Shown: piece by piece, positions 18,928-58,757 of the stretch
Numbering within the stretch: the first letter of the stretch is position 1
How the letters are laid out: each line of letters starts with the position of its first letter
DNA from: Arthrobacter sp. 260
Lineage (GTDB): Bacteria > Actinomycetota > Actinomycetes > Actinomycetales > Micrococcaceae
Reading direction: 5' to 3'
NCBI RefSeq assembly: GCF_013116745.1
Contig: NZ_JABFOE010000005.1
Location: 62,001-126,000 of the forward strand
Length of the DNA stretch: 64,000 bases
The notes under the pieces: generated by a model
What the model was told of the DNA's origin: nothing
Seen by the model: the letters and a program-made list of their open reading frames with translations, nothing else
The model's database searches: none
Position numbers and translations under genes: made by a program

Positions 18928-20352
18928 ATGTTCAAGAATGCGGACGAAGTCCTCAAGTTCATCGCTGACGAAGACGTAAAGTTTGTCGACGTCCGATTCA
19001 CCGACCTTCCCGGAGTGCAGCAGCACTTCAACGTTCCCGCTAAGTCAGTCGATGCAGACTTCTTTGTGAACGGGCAGCTGTTTGACGGATCATCGATCCG
19101 CGGCTTCCAGGGAATCGCCGAGTCGGACATGCAGCTGATTCCGGACGTCACCACTGCGTTCATTGACCCCTTCCGCATTGAGAAGACGCTCGCACTGAGC
19201 TTCTCGATTGTTAACCCTCGGACCGGCGATCCCTACCACCGTGACCCACGGGGTGTGGCAGAGCGCGCCGAGGCTTACCTCAGCTCAACCGGCATCGCTG
19301 ACACCGCGTTCTTCGCCCCTGAAGCCGAGTTCTACATCTTTGACAACGTGCAGTACGAATCCCTCCCCCAGGGCAGCTTCTACAAGGTTGACTCAGTCGA
19401 GGCACCCTGGAACAGCGGTCGCGAGGAAGAGGGCGGAAACCTTGGCAACAAGACTCCGTTCAAGGGTGGCTACTTCCCCGTGTCCCCCGTCGACAAGCAG
19501 GCCGACCTCCGCGACGCCATCTGCGTCGAACTGGACAATGCCGGCCTTGAGGTCGAGCGGTCGCACCACGAGGTAGGTGGCGCGGGCCAGGCGGAGATCA
19601 ACTACAAGTTCACCACCATGACTCACGCAGCTGACGACCTGCAGAAGTTCAAGTACATCGTCAAGAACGTTTCCGACGCGTGGGGCAAGTCGGCAACGTT
19701 CATGCCCAAGCCGGTCTTCGGTGACAACGGTTCGGGGATGCACTGCCACCAGTCGCTGTGGAGCGCTGGCGAGCCACTGTTCTATGACGAGCGCGGCTAC
19801 GCAGGACTGTCCGACATGGCCCGCTGGTACATCGGCGGCCTCCTCAAGCACGCCTCTGCTGTGCTGGCATTCACCAACCCGACGGTTAACTCCTACCGCC
19901 GCCTGGTCAAGGGCTTCGAAGCTCCGGTCAACATGGTCTACTCGCAGGGCAACCGCTCGGCCGGTATCCGCATCCCGATCACCGGTTCCAACCCGAAGGC
20001 CAAGCGCATCGAGTTCCGCGCGCCGGACCCCTCGTCCAACCCGTACCTGGCCTTCGCAGCACAGCTGATGGCCGGCCTTGACGGCATCAAGAACCGGATC
20101 GAGCCAGCTGACCCGATCGATAAGGATCTCTACGAGCTCCCCGCCGAGGAAGCCAAGGACATCCAGAAGGCTCCAGGCTCGTTGGAGGAAGCTCTGCTCG
20201 CCCTCGAGGCGGACAACGAGTTCCTGCAGGCCGGTGGCGTCTTCACCCAGGACCTGATCGACACCTGGATCGAGTACAAGCGTGAATTCGAGATCATCCC
20301 GCTGTCGCTGCGCCCGAACCCTTACGAGTTCGAGCTCTACTACGGCGTCTAG
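18928..20352 (+). CDS. glnA: Type I (beta) glutamine synthetase GlnA
   Basis: Makes glutamine from glutamate, ammonia and ATP, as a cytosolic dodecamer. It has 474 residues. Visible motifs: the N-terminal latch region [28 protein letters not shown]/metal-binding [20 protein letters not shown], the [16 protein letters not shown] signature, and NRSAGIRIP. The regulatory adenylylation tyrosine is present (Tyr402 in [10 protein letters not shown]), and its modifying enzyme GlnE is encoded beyond the prophage. AGGAG precedes the ATG. The last eight codons plus stop form the 27-bp attL core: the phage inserted here without changing the protein, but the gene's native terminator now lies at 58769. 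Confidence 0.97.
20326..20352 (+). repeat. attL core (27 bp) in the glnA 3' end
   Basis: Identical to 58731-58757 over 27 bp, with a mismatch on each side. It encodes EFELYYGV plus stop, so strand exchange anywhere in it leaves glnA unchanged. Confidence 0.95.
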
Positions 20353-20374: not shown

Positions 20375-20400
20375 GTTTAGTCCGCAGGCAGTCCGCAAGA
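20375..20400 (+). promoter_or_regulatory. Candidate integrase arm-type sites, left end
   Basis: Two AGTCCGCA copies at 20379-20386 and 20390-20397, 11 bp apart start to start, in the context GTTTAGTCCGCAG. The same doubled motif recurs at 58605-58630 near attR. It starts 22 bp from the attL core. Confidence 0.6.
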
Positions 20401-20592: not shown

Positions 20593-22341
20593 GTGGACCT
20601 TGATTCCGCCCTTCATCTCATTCTGACGTCAAAAACATCCGCGGCGAAAATCGAGTCGTCGTCCCTTGAATTCAAGCAAGAGAAAAGGGAGAAAAAGGAA
20701 ACTTTCCAAGACATAGCTGAAGCGTCAGTCTGCTTCGCGAATGGCGCGGGTGGGAAGATCATTCTCGGTGTCAGCGATCGAGGTACCGGTTCGGATGCGT
20801 TCCTAGGAACGGATATCGAAGCCGACGTCATGAAGGAGCGAATCTACGCGCTTACCCAGCCCTCACTTTTGGTGACTCTGGAGGAAATGACCACTGCAGA
20901 CGTCCGCTTACTGATTATCGACGTACCTGCGGGCCTAGATGTCTACCAAACCCACAAGACTGCGCCTACTCGTCGCCTCGGCGACCAGTGTCTCGTTCTG
21001 CTACCTGCGGAGGTGGGACGACTCAACGACGAGCGACGAGGCGCTGACTGGTCAGCGGATGCATCCGGGCGGCCATTAGAAGATATTTTGCCCTTAGCCC
21101 TTGTGCGGCTGAGGGGGTTGCTGAGCCAAACCACATCGCCCGGACTCAGAAGTCTCGCTGAGGCCGGTGTAGACGAGATGCTGACTTCCCTCAGATTTAT
21201 CCACCAGGATGGAACGCTCACTCGTGCGGCTGAGATAATGCTCTGCGGATCGACACAAGGCTTACCTGACACTCTCGTTGTTTATCAACATCGCAGCACG
21301 ACCGGTGGAGAGGCTGATTTTGTCCGGCGGTGGGGCGCTCCGCTCGTACAAGCCTTTCCAGAAATAATGGACGTCATAGCCAATCGCATCGGGATTACAC
21401 CGGTCACAACCGGTTCGGGCCAGCAGATCCAGATTGAGGACTATCCCCTGGCTGCCATCCGAGAGGCACTAGCAAACGCGCTCATGCATGGAGATCATAG
21501 GGAATCACGCCCCGTTTCCATCGAGCACTCCCCCGAACTGTTGACTGTACGTTCACCGGGACCGCTCGTGACTGGTGTTCTTCCCACCAATATTCTCACT
21601 CATCCGTCTAAGCCCCGTTTCAGGCACTTAGCGGATGTTTTCAGGAACATTGGTCTAGCCGAACAGCTCGGACAAGGCGTCGACCGAATGTTTAGAGAGA
21701 TGATCAGGAGCGGTCGAGCTGTTCCGTCTGTCGAAGAGGTAAGTGAGGGACAGGACACCTTGATCACTTTCACTGGTGGCCCGCCAAACTCACGAGTTGC
21801 TCGATTCTTGGCAACGTTACCCCTTGCCGAGCAGAACGATACTGACACGCTTCTCGTTACGACCGTGCTCTGTGAAAAGAGGACCATTACAGCTTCCTCA
21901 ATCAGTAATGTCCTCCAGCGAAGTGTCGAGGCCACTGAGTCGATCTTGCGTCGCTTGGCAACCGGCGAAGCTCATCTTCTGGAACCGACAGCTGGCACAT
22001 CATCTAGGCGACACCCTAGTTATCGCCTCCAACGAACCGCACTCGTCGCGCTCGGACCCGCGCTTCGGTATCAGAAGCGCTCAGTGAATGAGAGCGACGC
22101 AAAGATAGTGGAGCATGTAAAGGACTACGGTCAGATAAATAGCAGAACGGTGCAACGACTATTCGATCTGGACGTCTTTCAGGCGCGGGACCTGCTCCGG
22201 GATCTTCTCGGACGGGAACTTCTGATTCGTATATCTGAGCAATCAAGGGGTACCGCGGTTCGCTATGGTCCTGGTCCTAAGTTCCCACTGAAGAAGGCTA
22301 GGCCGAAACCCGGACCCGCGCCTGACGAGACATTGTTTTGA
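20593..22341 (+). CDS. AlbA_2 / divergent ATPase domain protein (Schlafen-like regulator)
   Basis: A 582-residue cytosolic protein with an N-terminal AlbA_2 (Schlafen-type) domain: SSLEFKQEK near residue 25, then EASVCFANGAGGKIILGVSD. In the middle is the HATPase-like domain typical of these proteins (YPLAAIREALANALMHGDH near 286, then GLAEQLGQGVDRMF). The C terminus has one or two winged-helix-like segments (DYGQINSRTVQRLFDL). Such proteins are annotated as putative transcriptional regulators or helicases, and some belong to phage-defence loci; the role here is unknown. GTG start after AAAGGAG. It sits alone between attL and the lysogeny operon, in the classic lysogenic-conversion position, with its own operator boxes. 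GC content is clearly lower than in the host genes. Confidence 0.82.
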   Translation: MDLDSALHLILTSKTSAAKIESSSLEFKQEKREKKETFQDIAEASVCFANGAGGKIILGVSDRGTGSDAFLGTDIEADVMKERIYALTQPSLLVTLEEMTTADVRLLIIDVPAGLDVYQTHKTAPTRRLGDQCLVLLPAEVGRLNDERRGADWSADASGRPLEDILPLALVRLRGLLSQTTSPGLRSLAEAGVDEMLTSLRFIHQDGTLTRAAEIMLCGSTQGLPDTLVVYQHRSTTGGEADFVRRWGAPLVQAFPEIMDVIANRIGITPVTTGSGQQIQIEDYPLAAIREALANALMHGDHRESRPVSIEHSPELLTVRSPGPLVTGVLPTNILTHPSKPRFRHLADVFRNIGLAEQLGQGVDRMFREMIRSGRAVPSVEEVSEGQDTLITFTGGPPNSRVARFLATLPLAEQNDTDTLLVTTVLCEKRTITASSISNVLQRSVEATESILRRLATGEAHLLEPTAGTSSRRHPSYRLQRTALVALGPALRYQKRSVNESDAKIVEHVKDYGQINSRTVQRLFDLDVFQARDLLRDLLGRELLIRISEQSRGTAVRYGPGPKFPLKKARPKPGPAPDETLF

Positions 22342-23579: not shown

Positions 23580-24656
23580 TTATTTCGAAGCTGATCCATG
23601 CATTCCGGTGGAGGTGCGCTCGATGAGAATAGCGGAGACTGCGGCTCGCGAGGAGTCGTCCTTGTCTGGCCAGATATGCCCATACGTATCGAGCGTGGTT
23701 TTTGCGGACGAGTGCCGAAGTCGTGTTTGAACGACCTTCACATCGAGCCCAGAGGCTATGAGTAGCGAAGCAAAGTAGTGCCGGAGGTCGTGGAACCGGA
23801 AACCGTCGGGTAGACCTTCTACCTGGACTCGTGCACGCCGGAACTGCGTCTCAATCGTGTAGGGCGCCACGGAGCGGCCCCACTCCCCCGTGACGATCGT
23901 TTCCGAACCCCACTTGGTCGGGTTGTGGTTGAGCTGCAGCGCGAGCTCCCGCGGGATCGGGATGGGCGTCTTGGACATCTCAGTCTTGAGTGGCTCGGCC
24001 GGATACTGAATTGTCGGATTGACGAAACCTCGCATGAAGTCGACGTCCTGGACCCGGAGCGCCGCTACTTCCGCGACCCTCAGCCCTGCGAAGGCGGCCA
24101 AGAGGATTGCCGGCCGCATACTCTCTGGCATTAGGTCATGAAGCGCCCACACTTGCCCGGTGGTTGCGACGTAAGGTCGCTGCTTGCCGGCGCCGGGAGA
24201 CGTCCTGCGGCTCACGGGTGACTTAGGGATTAGCCCGTCATGCACTGCATCCGCAAAGAGGTGGGACAGGCGGGCGTGCAGCGCGTACACGGTCGAGTCG
24301 GCGTAACCCTCTGCCTTCAGCTTCGCGGTCCAGGACCGCACCTCCGACGGTCGCACTGACGCCAGCTCCTTCGTCCCGAACTCGGCCTCGATGTGCTTGA
24401 GGTGGGACCGGGCCTGCTTCACTGTCGACGGACGCTTGTTCTCGTAACCCTTCATCCAGGAGACGCACCATTGCGACACTGTCGTCTTCGCGGTCTTGGG
24501 GTCCACATAGGTGCCAGTAACGACCGATGTCGTTACCTCATCGAGCCATCGTTGACCGTTCAGCTTCCGGGCAAAGTGTCGCGAGTGCTCCTTGCCGGCG
24601 GCGTCCCTGTATCGGGCACGCCAGCGCCCGTCAGCCCTCTTCTTAATGCTCGCCAT
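23580..24656 (-). CDS. int: Tyrosine recombinase (phage integrase)
   Basis: Site-specific recombinase that inserts and excises the prophage at the glnA 3' end. It has 358 residues from the ATG at 24656. The N-terminal arm-binding domain is the basic segment MASIKKRADGRWRARYRD. A SAM-like core-binding domain follows (about 55-150). The catalytic residues are visible: Arg in AAFAGLRVAEVAAL, His and Arg in FHDLRHYFASLL, the RHSSAKTTLDTYGHI block with His and the nucleophilic Tyr. The start at 24656 gives the typical N terminus and overlaps the repressor stop by 14 nt, implying translational coupling. Longer ATG and GTG starts up to 24707 exist. Expected DNA sites are the att cores and the AGTCCGCA repeats at both ends. 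Confidence 0.95.
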   Translation of the reverse strand: MASIKKRADGRWRARYRDAAGKEHSRHFARKLNGQRWLDEVTTSVVTGTYVDPKTAKTTVSQWCVSWMKGYENKRPSTVKQARSHLKHIEAEFGTKELASVRPSEVRSWTAKLKAEGYADSTVYALHARLSHLFADAVHDGLIPKSPVSRRTSPGAGKQRPYVATTGQVWALHDLMPESMRPAILLAAFAGLRVAEVAALRVQDVDFMRGFVNPTIQYPAEPLKTEMSKTPIPIPRELALQLNHNPTKWGSETIVTGEWGRSVAPYTIETQFRRARVQVEGLPDGFRFHDLRHYFASLLIASGLDVKVVQTRLRHSSAKTTLDTYGHIWPDKDDSSRAAVSAILIERTSTGMHGSASK

Positions 24657-25395
24657 CAGTTTCCATCGCTCTCCGGGGCAAGGACTCACGGACATAAGAT
24701 CGGGCACGTTGGATTTCTACATCCGAGCTGAGTCCCACGATTGGAAGTTCTGCATCCTGCGCCTTGCTCCAGTCCTTCTCAAAGGCCAGGAGAGCCTCGG
24801 GCAACGGCAGAGATTCCAATTTCCCACCCGATCTGACGAACTCTGCCCTCACCTCCATAAGATCCCATATCGCCTCCCGAAGGAGCACTCCGGAGATCAC
24901 TGGGCCAGCGAATTCCCTGTCCAGCTTCGCCGCATCAAAGTTGGGGAAGACATGTTGAAGAGCATTTTGCCAGACGACCGTTCGTAGGAATCGGTTGTAG
25001 TTCCTAAGAGAGTCAAAGGGACCGTCTGACTGATTGCCCGTTAGCCAGTCATAAGCATCGACTAAGGGCATAGGTAACTCGGCGGACGGACTCATACTCA
25101 ATTCAGACGCGTAAGGCATCCCCAGGAGCAGATAGGCAGGGGGAACTTGCAGTGCCGACGCGAAGGCGTACACCTCCCCAACGCTGAACGAGGTTCGCTT
25201 TCGGCCCGACAAAATGCCATTGAGGGTTGCGACGCCAACGGGCCACCCAAACTCATCCAAACGGACCACAAGATCCCGGATAGTGAGGCCCTGGTCGTCC
25301 CTTAGAGCATTGACGCTGTCGACGATGAGATTGGCATGGGCGGCCTCCCAGCCCCTCCACCGTTCCTTGCTCTGCCCAGCACTACTGTTTGTCAT
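24643..25395 (-). CDS. Phage repressor-like HTH protein
   Basis: A 250-residue protein with an XRE-type helix-turn-helix near residues 25-75 (LTIRDLVVRLDEFGWPVGVA, then TLNGILSGRKR) and a long C-terminal domain without known protease motifs. It is first in the leftward lysogeny operon and divergent from the early genes, so it is the best candidate for the immunity repressor. The ATG at 25395 is preferred: ATAATC and the -10-like AATAAT lie just upstream and it starts before the HTH with a short basic tail; an upstream in-frame ATG at 25485 would run through the control region. The stop overlaps the integrase start. Confidence 0.75.
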   Translation of the reverse strand: MTNSSAGQSKERWRGWEAAHANLIVDSVNALRDDQGLTIRDLVVRLDEFGWPVGVATLNGILSGRKRTSFSVGEVYAFASALQVPPAYLLLGMPYASELSMSPSAELPMPLVDAYDWLTGNQSDGPFDSLRNYNRFLRTVVWQNALQHVFPNFDAAKLDREFAGPVISGVLLREAIWDLMEVRAEFVRSGGKLESLPLPEALLAFEKDWSKAQDAELPIVGLSSDVEIQRARSYVRESLPRRAMETDGEH

Positions 25396-25526: not shown

Positions 25527-25727
25527 ATGGGGTCAACCCCGAATTCTCACCTGCTAACCCTCGACGAGGCAGCGGCCTTCCTTCGAAAGTCACCCGCCCA
25601 ACTTCGATGGATGCGGCACCGGTCTGAAGGACCAAAGTCCGCAAAACTCCAAGGACGCGTTATGTACCGCGAGCAGGATTTAGTTGCCTGGGTCGACGCC
25701 GCATTCGAAGCGGAAGAAGCCAGATAG
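25527..25727 (+). CDS. Small HTH protein (excisionase/MerR-like), first early gene
   Basis: A 66-residue DNA-binding protein of the HTH_17 type: TLDEAAAFLRKSPAQLRWMR followed by a short beta wing (SAKLQGRVMYREQDLVAWV). Candidates for its role are excisionase or a Cro-like switch protein; its place opposite the repressor favours a switch or directionality role. AAGGAG lies 5-6 nt before the ATG, next to the 17-bp palindrome. The next possible start (GTG at 25727) overlaps the stop codon. Confidence 0.78.
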   Translation: MGSTPNSHLLTLDEAAAFLRKSPAQLRWMRHRSEGPKSAKLQGRVMYREQDLVAWVDAAFEAEEAR

Positions 25728-55694: not shown

Positions 55695-55804
55695 GTCGAG
55701 GATCTATGCACTTCGCTTCATCGGAGGCATACTGGTTTTGCGAGGGGGTCGGACGCTTAACCCAGGGTCCCCCGTCGGGGCATGGTGCTGTGACCACCTG
55801 CCCA

Positions 55805-55848
55805 CTGGGCGGAGCCGGACGGCCCCAAACAGTTCCGGCTCCGCCCAG
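55805..55848. repeat. GC hairpin element, copy 1
   Basis: CTGGGCGGAGCCGG and CCGGCTCCGCCCAG, a perfect 14-bp stem, with a 16-nt loop containing GGCCCC. Copy 2 is at 56609-56649. Confidence 0.8.
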
Positions 55849-55922
55849 CCACCCTCGTCAACAATCTCCGATTCTGGGTAAAATCCTTAAGTCCAAACTG
55901 ATACGAGCGATCGGGGCAAGTC

Positions 55923-56346: not shown

Positions 56347-56608
56347 CGTCGACTAAACACCTTTTGGGGGCGTTCGGCTGTTCCTTTTCATGTACGTTTC
56401 GCCCTATACTTTCGGCAGGCTTACATCCCCCAGACCCCGGGGTGTAAGTCCAAAAAGGGGTTTGAAATACCGCCAAAGTTTAGGCCAGACGCGACCAAAC
56501 TCTTGCTCTGTACAACCAGCTTTACCCCGGGCATACTGGTGCCCGAGGGGTGGCCATCCGAAGGTGAGCCTGTCCCTTCTGGGTTCGGCGATCCGACCGC
56601 TGGACCAG

Positions 56609-56649
56609 CTGGGCGGGGTCGGTGGCCCCCACAAGCCGGCTCCGCCCAG
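56609..56649. repeat. GC hairpin element, copy 2
   Basis: CTGGGCGGGGTCGG and CCGGCTCCGCCCAG, paired throughout if G-U is allowed, with a 13-nt loop containing GGCCCCC. The right arm is identical to that of copy 1. Confidence 0.75.
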
Positions 56650-56736
56650 CCCTCACAAGGCAGACGAAGGTTCGCCTTTTCTTCCTCCCCCGACTGTCAA
56701 GGTATTTTGTCGCCAGCCGGGAGTACCCTCCTGGAC

Positions 56737-57027
56737 ATGGCGCACAAGTTTCACGGTGACAGCTGGAGCCTCGCCCCCGGCACCCGCAACTGGACCCCAC
56801 CCCTACAGGTGGAGGAACCAGATCCCGCCGTCGTGCACACCACCGACAAGACAATCCCCCTCTGGGCCGACCTCGCTTACCCCGATGGCCACACAGCGAC
56901 AGCCAAAGGTTTTGCCCAGGCATGGACACGTGAAGTGGTCCGGATCCAATGGGTCGAGAACAGCCTTCCCCGGTACGCCTGGGTGGCTGTAGGCCAAGTT
57001 CGACGACGAACACTGAGTGGGCGGTAA
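56737..57027 (+). CDS. Small phage protein (unknown), leaderless-type start
   Basis: A 96-residue protein of unknown function (MAHKFHGDSWSLAPGTRNWT, then PLWADLAYPDGHTATAKGFA), with a C terminus rich in aromatic residues (RYAWVAVGQVRRR). The ATG at 56737 has TACCCT 7 nt upstream and no ribosome binding site, the pattern shared with the HTH genes that follow. The reading frame is open further upstream, but without coding signs. Confidence 0.6.
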   Translation: MAHKFHGDSWSLAPGTRNWTPPLQVEEPDPAVVHTTDKTIPLWADLAYPDGHTATAKGFAQAWTREVVRIQWVENSLPRYAWVAVGQVRRRTLSGR

Positions 57028-57038
57028 GCTAACGCTTC

Positions 57039-57254
57039 ATGAGCCGATCTCTTTCAACTGAAGAACTTGCCCAACGCTGGGGTCGGCGACAGGCCTGGAT
57101 TACCGGCGAGGCACGGCGAGGCGGAATCCCTGGAGCATGGAAACTAGGTCACCTATGGCGGTTTTCCCTTCCAGAAATTGAAGCATTCGAAGTAGCGCAG
57201 CAAACGCCGAGCATCTTCGCACTCAGTAAAGGTGCAGCGGCACGGCGACGGTAG
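57039..57254 (+). CDS. Small HTH DNA-binding protein 1
   Basis: A 71-residue HTH protein of excisionase/MerR type: LSTEELAQRWGRRQAWITGE followed by AWKLGHLWRFSLPEIEAFEV. A -10-like TAAGCT (57025-57030) lies 8 nt before the ATG, with no ribosome binding site, which suggests a leaderless mRNA. It belongs to the group of five such genes beside attR. Confidence 0.75.
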   Translation: MSRSLSTEELAQRWGRRQAWITGEARRGGIPGAWKLGHLWRFSLPEIEAFEVAQQTPSIFALSKGAAARRR

Positions 57255-57299
57255 GACCGATCTTCCCAAACTTCGGATGAGGCATCTGCCGGGAAATCT

Positions 57300-57758
57300 T
57301 CAGGATCGGCAGGTCGCGAAATGGTCCAGCCCCTCGGCTTCTCCTGCGACTGCTGCGCGTTGCCTGATGTGGTCGCGAATGGCCTCCACGTCCTCCTTCG
57401 AGAGAGTGATCCTGTTCCGCTCTAGCCGTGTGCAGATGCCTGTTTGTCGGCACAAGCGGCGGAGAGTAGTCGGCTTCAATCCCAGTTCTGGTGCGACATC
57501 CTCGGGTGTGCGAAATACTTTTCCGGCCGCCGACGTTTCCATGGACGTTGCAATAGTGGTGCCGCTGTCATGCCTTCTTTGGAGTGTCGCCGGAAGGCCC
57601 AGCAGCCAGCCTTCCAAGTCATGGTGAAGGATGATTTGCTCCTCGCAAACGAAGCGTGCGACTAGGATTCCGTCACTCACTTGCTGGTCGATAGTGCGAA
57701 CACTACAACCACACGCCTCTGCGGCTTCCTCCAGTGTGTAAGCGAGCTTAAATGCCAT
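57300..57758 (-). CDS. Double-HTH DNA-binding protein
   Basis: A 152-residue protein with two excisionase-like HTH modules. Module 1 is KLAYTLEEAAEACGCSVRTI, related to the 57855 and 58371 proteins. Module 2 is TPEDVAPELGLKPTTLRRLC. A Ser/Thr-rich linker separates them. TAGGAT (complement of 57766-57771) lies 7 nt before the ATG and there is no ribosome binding site. It may bind two sites at once, as excisionases or directionality factors do; the role is unproven. Confidence 0.74.
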   Translation of the reverse strand: MAFKLAYTLEEAAEACGCSVRTIDQQVSDGILVARFVCEEQIILHHDLEGWLLGLPATLQRRHDSGTTIATSMETSAAGKVFRTPEDVAPELGLKPTTLRRLCRQTGICTRLERNRITLSKEDVEAIRDHIRQRAAVAGEAEGLDHFATCRS

Positions 57759-57854
57759 GCTTGAAATCCTAGGCCGGAAACGTACAAGAGGCAGCGGGCG
57801 GGGTTTAGCACCGACACCGTCCGGTAATGCCCGCTGCTACTGAAGACCTACTGA

Positions 57855-58040
57855 TTATGTGACGTATTCACTCGGTAGGGAATCAAACCACGCTTTGAGT
57901 TCGTCCGCCCCGATGACTGGTCTGCTGGTTGGGTATCTGGCCACGAGGTTCCCGGCTTTGATGTGCGCTCGGATTACGTTGTGACTTACCCCGTAAGCGG
58001 CTGCAGCTTCGGGGATAGTGTAGGCGAGTTTTGAGGTCAT
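57855..58040 (-). CDS. Small HTH DNA-binding protein 2
   Basis: A 61-residue HTH protein (KLAYTIPEAAAAYGVSHNVI) with the segment AHIKAGNLVARYPTSRPVIG, shared with the 58371 protein. TAGGGT (complement of 58048-58053) lies 7 nt before the ATG. Its promoter is back-to-back with that of the 58095 gene, 27 bp apart, so the two may share an operator. Confidence 0.74.
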   Translation of the reverse strand: MTSKLAYTIPEAAAAYGVSHNVIRAHIKAGNLVARYPTSRPVIGADELKAWFDSLPSEYVT

Positions 58041-58094
58041 ATCGACAACCCTAAGGCGACCTCAACGGTGCAGCCAGAGGTAGGCTCACTGAGC

Positions 58095-58340
58095 ATGACT
58101 TCACCTTCAGCCAACCTGACCGCAGCAGACATCGCCGAGAGATTGAACGTGGACGTAGAAACGGTTCGTCGTATGTGCCGGACGGGCATATGGTCTGCAA
58201 CCAGGATCGGCAGGCTCTACCGTTTCACCGAAGACCAGTACCTCAGCATCATTGACCCCAAGCAGGCACCCGGCCCGACACAACAGCGACGGCGAACACA
58301 GCAACGCGAGAACATAGACCGGTTGTTCCGCAATCACTAA
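58095..58340 (+). CDS. Small HTH DNA-binding protein 3
   Basis: An 81-residue HTH protein (LTAADIAERLNVDVETVRRM followed by SATRIGRLYRFTEDQYLSII), basic at its C terminus. TAGGCT (58081-58086) lies 8 nt before the ATG at 58095, which is preferred to an upstream GTG at 58068. It is divergent from the 57855 gene. Confidence 0.72.
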   Translation: MTSPSANLTAADIAERLNVDVETVRRMCRTGIWSATRIGRLYRFTEDQYLSIIDPKQAPGPTQQRRRTQQRENIDRLFRNH

Positions 58341-58370
58341 GCGTCCGATCTCAACAATAGGATCGACGGT

Positions 58371-58601
58371 ATGAGCGAAGAATTGATGCGCGAGCGAAGC
58401 GACAAGATTGCGTACAACATCCAAGAAGCTGCGGCCGCGGTCGGCTGCAGCGCTGATACCCTCCGAGCACACATCAAAGCCGGCTACCTTATCGCCCGTT
58501 ACCCGACATCGCGCCCGGTCATTGTTCGGGAGGAGCTGATAGCTTGGCTGAGTTCCCTGCCGTCGGAGCCTAAGGGGGGTCACGGCCCAGTAAGCCTGTA
58601 A
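58371..58601 (+). CDS. Small HTH DNA-binding protein 4, next to the arm sites
   Basis: A 76-residue HTH protein, a paralogue of the 57855 product: both read AHIKAG, ARYPTSRPVI, EL, AW and SLPSE in register. TAGGAT (58358-58363) lies 7 nt before the ATG. Its stop codon is a few bases from the AGTCCGCA arm repeats, so it is the best-placed candidate for the excisionase. Confidence 0.76.
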   Translation: MSEELMRERSDKIAYNIQEAAAAVGCSADTLRAHIKAGYLIARYPTSRPVIVREELIAWLSSLPSEPKGGHGPVSL

Positions 58602-58604
58602 GAG

Positions 58605-58630
58605 GTTTAGTCCGCAGAAAGTCCGCACGA
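58605..58630 (+). promoter_or_regulatory. Candidate integrase arm-type sites, right end
   Basis: AGTCCGCA at 58609-58616 and 58620-58627, again 11 bp apart, in the same context (GGTTTAGTCCGCAG) as at attL. It lies about 100 bp inside the attR core. Confidence 0.6.
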
Positions 58631-58730
58631 GGTCCAAAACAGGGCTGATCTAGCCAACCACTGACAACGCCGAAAACCCCTAAAACAAGCGGATCTCAGC
58701 ACCTACCAACACCCTGCAATAACCCCTGGT

Positions 58731-58757
58731 GAGTTCGAGCTCTACTACGGCGTCTAG
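58731..58757 (+). repeat. attR core (27 bp)
   Basis: Exact copy of 20326-20352. It looks like the end of glnA without the gene. Host sequence resumes right after it. Confidence 0.95.

Follow-up and report, generated by a model that had tools for sequence, protein, structure and literature searches.

Single excisionases, excisionase–repressor switches and crosstalk between excisionases are already known, and the RdfS tripartite integrative and conjugative elements (ICEs) reportedly combine several directionality factors in one system with three recombinases. Here we describe a 64,000-nucleotide stretch of Arthrobacter sp. 260 (contig NZ_JABFOE010000005.1, positions 62001–126000; hereafter the window), in which a prophage of about 38.4 kb lies in the 3′ end of glnA, bounded by the attachment sites attL and attR, and carries at attR a cluster of six small genes (A–F), five of which encode excisionase-type helix-turn-helix (HTH) proteins. 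The match of RdfS (PDB 8dgl) to this cluster is not significant (E-value 0.72), and the window has one integrase. We tentatively propose that the cluster may constitute an attachment-side switch of excisionase (Xis/Cox-type) DNA-binding proteins, a reading that we hold to be possible, if somewhat short of an even chance. Such a recurring multi-lineage excisionase cluster, with separate and partly head-to-head promoters, would offer a compact natural system in which to test control of an element's own excision and that of others, and why small DNA-binding genes accumulate at prophage ends.

Two described systems come closest. In Pf4, the genes for the excisionase XisF4 and the repressor Pf4r are divergent, have overlapping 5′ untranslated regions and repress each other (PMC7379572). 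This arrangement and that of genes D and E in the window are both head to head and include an excisionase type; however, Pf4 sets one excisionase against one repressor, whereas both partners in the window are excisionase-type. The EcCIMP1 report (PMC11773190) describes several AlpA-family excisionase-type proteins per cell that complement or inhibit a prophage without its own: excisionases of a phage-inducible chromosomal island (PICI) and a presumed ICE support prophage excision, and two others cut prophage replication further when overexpressed. In E. coli those genes are spread over separate elements, whereas the window holds one cluster in one element. The same protein lineages occur in temperate Arthrobacter phages (Hestia 46, MargaretKali 34, BrayBeast 37, Zucker 44, Faja 55 and EvePickles 50), where the gene lies inside an early operon, in contrast to the five separate genes, on both strands and at the attachment site, of the window. 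Among the titles listed by the literature searches (up to 15 per search, in some cases a small part of all matches, and from a collection with few subscription papers), none reported multiple excisionase lineages, some of them fused, clustered recurrently on the arm side.

The cluster and the adjoining attachment site comprise the following features.

56724–57027, plus strand: hexamer TACCCT (56724–56729) and gene A (56737–57027), 96 aa, not HTH
57025–57254, plus strand: hexamer TAAGCT (57025–57030) and gene B (57039–57254), 71 aa, HTH
57300–57771, minus strand: gene C (57300–57758), 152 aa, two HTH, and hexamer TAGGAT (57766–57771)
57855–58053, minus strand: gene D (57855–58040), 61 aa, HTH, and hexamer TAGGGT (58048–58053)
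58081–58340, plus strand: hexamer TAGGCT (58081–58086) and gene E (58095–58340), 81 aa, HTH
58358–58601, plus strand: hexamer TAGGAT (58358–58363) and gene F (58371–58601), 76 aa, HTH
58609–58627, plus strand: attR arm-type sites, two AGTCCGCA starting at 58609 and 58620, 11 bp apart
58631–58730, no strand: attR arm-to-core stretch, candidate accessory-factor sites, with partial likeness to A. koreensis
58731–58757, plus strand: attR core, a 27-bp exact direct repeat with 20326–20352

The sequence-only reading of this DNA had described five HTH proteins, one with two modules, and one preceding small gene, and profile searches agree: Pfam HTH_17 matches B (E-value 1e-4), C (two stretches; 1.3e-10), D (3.7e-5), E (2.4e-8) and F (3.9e-5), with the curated cut-off reached by C and E only and B, D and F falling under it. 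Proteins B–F also match PHROG excisionase families, B corresponding to the excisionase family phrog_1840 (E-value 1e-5), and gene A has neither a Pfam nor a PHROG match. That reading was also right that D (57855) and F (58371) are clear paralogues (67% identity over 57 aa), that D and E are divergent, with 27 bp between their hexamers, and that attR lies beside the cluster: the stop codon of gene F immediately precedes the arm sites, the first arm repeat beginning 8 nt past it. Gene C is a D-type N-terminal half, a third paralogue about 40% identical to D, fused to a C-terminal half of a type that we call CC. A structure prediction for gene C from two sequences had a mean predicted local distance difference test score of 49.8 and was not used. 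In comparison with L015, a related prophage from IMG/VR, the cluster genes are under purifying selection, with ratios of nonsynonymous to synonymous substitution (Ka/Ks; Nei–Gojobori script, with D, E and F compared over their first 57, 52 and 66 codons only) of about 0.15 for A, 0.10 for B, 0.20 for C, 0 for D, 0.08 for E and 0.07 for F; D shows no amino-acid change in the 57 codons compared.

The possibility that the cluster is peculiar to this phage was ruled out by L015 and by further clusters. The sequence-only reading had named absence of the cluster as a unit from related phages as evidence against itself, and L015 has all six genes, at 83% DNA identity; a second IMG/VR sequence (L014) is identical over the cluster stretch and presumably represents the same prophage. 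A search of phages at the DNA level gave no match. A. koreensis DSM 16760, which like the host of the window belongs to the Micrococcaceae, has homologues of B, E, D (78% identical) and the second half of gene C (C2) beside the same arm repeats, and resembles the window also between arm and core. A profile search with CC recovered 22 viral loci and 13 of the 295 genomes of the host family that were surveyed (window, L015 and A. koreensis among them). In the 32 other CC loci, clear D or E genes lie near CC in 6 and not in 26, some of the latter being only 3.2 kb long or trimmed and several being known phages with CC as the sole such gene. The further sets are arranged as follows.

L197, viral contig: D, E, D and CC next to an integrase that is distantly related (25% across the matched part), D and CC overlapping
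L220: CC, D and E, with an arm pair about 95 nt off and D/E hexamers at 6 nt, 2 bp apart
L221: D–CC fused in one open reading frame (ORF), with an arm pair directly beside
L222: D–CC fused in one ORF, with one small ORF between the fusion and the arm pair
L223: D–CC fusion, E and D, with an arm pair directly beside, and further genes of types E and D at a second arm pair
L224: D, E and CC, with an arm pair about 1.1 kb away
L030: three HTH-like genes, interspersed with other ORFs, in the vicinity of an arm pair
L047: two genes of the same orientation, one F-like and one B-like, adjoining an integrase

L220–L224 represent five host-family genomes, in which the clusters of L220–L223 sit at a AGTCCGCA-type arm pair and that of L224 sits farther away. 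Within the 20-kb stretches, an integrase of the prophage's type is present in L222 and L224 and in fragments in L223. Genes of types D and CC frequently lie side by side or are joined in one ORF, and gene C is one of several D–CC fusions, since the two are joined in L221, L222 and L223 as well. Adjacent head-to-head HTH pairs occur in six of the nine multi-gene sets (window, L015, A. koreensis, L197, L220 and L223).

Some of these elements are small. The A. koreensis element (L046) spans 10.2 kb between two 20-bp core copies and has its own integrase and an X25-like gene (X25 being the early excisionase-like gene of the prophage, below); its small size, own integrase, early regulator and attachment-site repeats are those expected of a phage-inducible satellite. 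It is thus a candidate actinobacterial phage satellite, with a shrunken prophage as the alternative. By eye, it also encodes a likely helicase-type ATPase and possibly a small terminase. L222 contains, at about 2.1–10.3 kb, another small element, about 8 kb in size, which has an integrase, an X25-type gene and a D–CC fusion and adjoins a phosphoglycerate-mutase-like gene (by eye) similar to that next to the A. koreensis element. L223 holds, at 9.7–15.8 kb, two arm pairs together with fragments of integrase and a row of several D- and E-type genes, a pattern that tandem insertion of two related elements might have produced.

Turning to the promoters, a TAnnnT hexamer precedes the ATG of all six genes by 7, 8, 7, 7, 8 and 7 nt (A–F in order), and none has a separate Shine–Dalgarno site, as first reported; the AGGA before C and F belongs to the hexamer, and the TAAGCT of gene B overlaps the stop codon of gene A. 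TAnnnT occurs at a frequency of 0.0066 per position in the window, the six hexamers included, and the chance of finding it at a spacing of 7–8 nt in six of six genes, given the candidate starts, is of the order of 1e-10 under independence; elsewhere in the prophage, a hexamer stands at this distance before 2 of 35 genes. L015 keeps all six hexamers and spacings, with changes only in the middle bases of two, A (TACCCT to TAGCCT) and C (TAGGAT to TAATAT). Six of the eight HTH genes that abut arm sites (window F, A. koreensis C2, L028, L030, L024 and L221) have a hexamer at 6–8 nt, the other two being those of L143 and L223.

Leaderless genes carry TANNNT around 12 bp before the start (PMC3160421), and all six genes agree with that description, with the first T 13–14 nt before the ATG and no separate Shine–Dalgarno site. 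In the host, TAnnnT spacing peaks at exactly 6 nt, with 22 cases there, 4 at 7 nt and 0 at 8 nt, and with counts of 0–5 at each non-6 spacing from 0 to 29 nt, in a sample of 159 genes and 929 candidate starts taken by mechanical gene calling from nine 20-kb stretches and the window flanks. For host genes of the leaderless type, a hexamer exactly 6 nt before the start is a sharp rule, of use in annotation. The cluster hexamers, at 7 or 8 nt, sit 1–2 nt off this usage and none has the host-typical gap. This leaves two possibilities: a shifted start site that coincides with the ATG, or transcripts with a leader of 1–2 nt. Of the leaderless-type promoters originally claimed, the six hexamers and the missing Shine–Dalgarno sites therefore stand, but leaderless expression of the six genes is plausible and goes no further, because the spacing departs from the host mode of 6 nt; the description "canonical leaderless promoters" was not upheld on the same grounds.

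Four lineages can be distinguished among the excisionase-type proteins, namely B, CC, D and E, each nearer to particular phage genes than to the other lineages. The best phage matches of both halves of C, D, E and F have 46–60% identity: the N-terminal half of gene C is 58% identical to Hestia gp46 and its C-terminal half 55% identical to BrayBeast gp37, D is 47% identical to MargaretKali gp34 and E is 60% identical to EvePickles gp50. A. koreensis C2 is 81% identical to Zucker gp44. The matched phage genes carry mixed annotations: excise or excisionase for some, and no more than HTH or hypothetical protein for others. For gene B, no match was found in the phage collection; outside the clusters it is closest to a gene without annotation (58% identity) that follows a cro-like gene in an early operon of L020. 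The tree groups the proteins accordingly, with support of 100/99 for B, 99/98 for CC, 91/88 for the N-terminal half of C with Hestia and 92/87 for E with Faja and EvePickles, but it leaves 12 of its 30 inner branches without resolution, and a number of long branches make the deeper placements unsure. Profile searches of the PDB pointed to 6ama/6amk, which we take to be BldC, and to Gp37 (4j2n), presumably a mycobacteriophage Xis (E-values 2e-4 to 6.5e-4), and gave no convincing match for profile CC. The best PDB E-value belonged to 8vd6 (CAP REPEAT), which was set aside as a repeat artefact, since no single stretch passes alone.

The remainder of the prophage frame is needed to weigh the role of the cluster.

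20326–20352, plus strand: attL core, at the glnA 3′ end; exact 27-bp direct repeat, other copy at 58731–58757
20379–20397, plus strand: attL arm-type sites, two AGTCCGCA starting at 20379 and 20390, 11 bp apart
23580–24656, minus strand: tyrosine integrase (Pfam Phage_integrase, E-value 1e-18; phrog_1, E-value 6e-61 for the longer reading)
24643–25395, minus strand: probable XRE-type repressor adjoining the integrase gene (HTH_3, E-value 0.0021, under its cut-off)
25527–25727, plus strand: X25, an excisionase-like HTH protein in the usual early slot (HTH_17, E-value 1.5e-9; phrog_66), with Shine–Dalgarno aaggag

The AGTCCGCA pairs, read as predicted integrase arm sites, also occur by the integrase gene in many members of the prophage's integrase family. 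The attR arm sites align with those of 13 other P arms, which were chosen by the AGTCCGCA-pair pattern itself; between arm and core (58631–58730), no clear likeness was seen in the 12 aligned P arms other than that of A. koreensis. Among the 42 integrase-family loci surveyed (below), 12 distinct P arms besides that of the window are visible; three of them have an abutting excisionase-type HTH gene (L028, L143 and L024), the L024 gene having no Pfam match and a weak match to a PHROG family also matched by the L028 gene, and L166 has an HTH-like ORF of another kind. Three further contigs (L142, L144 and L146) end at a gene and have an excisionase-like HTH gene at the far end (by eye, in part by profile), their arms not being visible.

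In the switch that we favour, the short promoters on the D (and C) side and on the E side would compete or cross-repress in the lysogen, such that one of the two sides is on at a time. Like Xis/Cox-type proteins, the products would bind attachment DNA and each other's promoters; bound near the P arm, they would bend the DNA and, together with the general partner X25, help or block the integrase. The switch would thereby set when the element may excise, coupling excision to its own state. The recurrence of such gene sets at the ends of related mobile elements suggests a dedicated switch for entry into and exit from the chromosome, or for interference with rival elements.

Several results weigh against this proposal. 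An X25-type gene occupies a similar place near the integrase gene in 38 of 42 loci of the integrase family from IMG/VR, a set that includes the window and L015 and the near-duplicates L097 and L098, and for which the window and L028 helped to build the X25 profile. By contrast with such co-occurrence, as expected of the integrase's directionality factor, no abutting HTH gene was found at 8 of the 12 further P arms; excision must usually work without such a cluster, because few P arms have an arm-side gene. The cluster arrangement itself is not constant: gene order and pairings vary, and the remaining three of the nine multi-gene sets (L224, L030 and L047) have no adjacent head-to-head HTH pair. 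A hexamer at 6–8 nt precedes just 9 of 23 HTH genes in the other clusters (A. koreensis, L197 and L220–L224), so that only in the window and L015 do all the genes have such promoters. No integrase of the prophage's type was found in the 20-kb stretches of L220 and L221, no shared operator was found, and the extra clusters were found via searches with the cluster proteins, which biases their frequency upward. One candidate operator, TTGTACGTTTC, was rejected: it has 2 sites in the window, and 7 of 100 shuffles reach 2.

The cluster thus looks accessory, because a gene of the X25 type in the usual early slot accompanies the integrase in most loci, and the notion that one of the five is a plain, sole excisionase was ruled out for the same reason. 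The regulated excision set originally suggested is partly supported: it agrees with the recurrence of the cluster, with its location beside the arms, with promoters arranged head to head and with its relatedness to phage excise genes.

Alternatively, the prophage and its small relatives could carry several excisionase lineages that match those of other temperate phages and direct them at such phages, whether by excising a helper or rival prophage or by blocking its integration or early transcription. We consider this somewhat unlikely. D-type genes match 32 phage records (30 listed), E-type genes 26 and CC-type genes 21, GenBank and RefSeq copies of one phage counting twice. The E and CC lists have no accession in common, each search found one place per phage record, and the six Arthrobacter records among the listed D matches are in neither list; this partition, the resemblances to Zucker gp44, EvePickles gp50 and Hestia gp46, and the crosstalk among PICI, presumed ICE and prophage described in PMC11773190 would all suit an outward-directed set. 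In the nine phages inspected, the gene comes after the cro-position gene, or after an HNH gene in Faja, and none of these nine early-operon genes has a TAnnnT hexamer 5–10 nt before its start, unlike the cluster genes with their own promoters. Against use on other phages, D and CC are linked and fused and sit by the arms of the element that carries them, which suggests that the module acts at home; D and MargaretKali gp34 differ, by eye, in the recognition-helix part; and the "excise" names of the phage genes are annotations, many of the matched genes being annotated as HTH only. A history of independent captures from rival phages is likewise weakened by the D–CC pairs and fusions in other genomes. 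Sequence evidence does not decide between the switch and a set directed at other phages, with the home-site location and the D–CC linkage tilting towards the switch.

Both functions might also be joined. Micrococcaceae elements could carry a combinatorial attachment-site set of excisionases (B, D, CC and E, some of them fused), in which D, CC and E are each the sole such gene in different temperate phage groups, serving as a switchboard for the element's own excision that would also override the excision or integration of phages, whether co-resident or incoming; we regard this broader proposal as unlikely.

A further alternative, which appears unlikely, is that the cluster is prophage-end cargo, consisting of small regulators that are transcribed separately in the lysogen and act on host or phage genes, with no role in recombination. 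Its place between the late genes and attR and its separate promoters on both strands would accord with cargo, as would the wide distribution of gene A, kin of which occur in 59 of the 295 host-family genomes, the host included, with neighbouring copies in several. Yet the genes are of excisionase-type families, and such genes adjoin arm sites in elements of differing content. Finally, repeated insertion of small elements at one site might have left excisionase genes with little present function, as the two arm pairs about 4.5 kb apart in L223 (HTH genes by each, integrase fragments between) and the arm pairs with HTH genes but without such an integrase within 20 kb in L220 and L221 could suggest, but the low Ka/Ks of all genes and the conserved hexamers had already weakened this explanation, which is quite unlikely.

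Two other features of the prophage were observed. Between attL and the integrase gene, 20593–22341 encodes Schlafen AlbA_2 and RecG-like ATPase domains, a common accessory or defence-like gene type. Upstream of the cluster, a strongly folding element of about 125 nt, apparently without coding function and ending in a long hairpin, is repeated (55726–55850 and 56526–56652) and occurs also in L015 (3543–3668), the three copies having predicted folding energies of −66, −76 and −56 kcal/mol (no shuffled control). An Rfam scan of 20000–59300 returned 0 matches, none therefore for this element. L015 matches the second copy exactly over 21 nt, against 76% likeness for the whole, and this 21-mer, allowing up to one mismatch, is present in 1 of the 295 family genomes, which is the host's own. 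The element is possibly a phage non-coding RNA.

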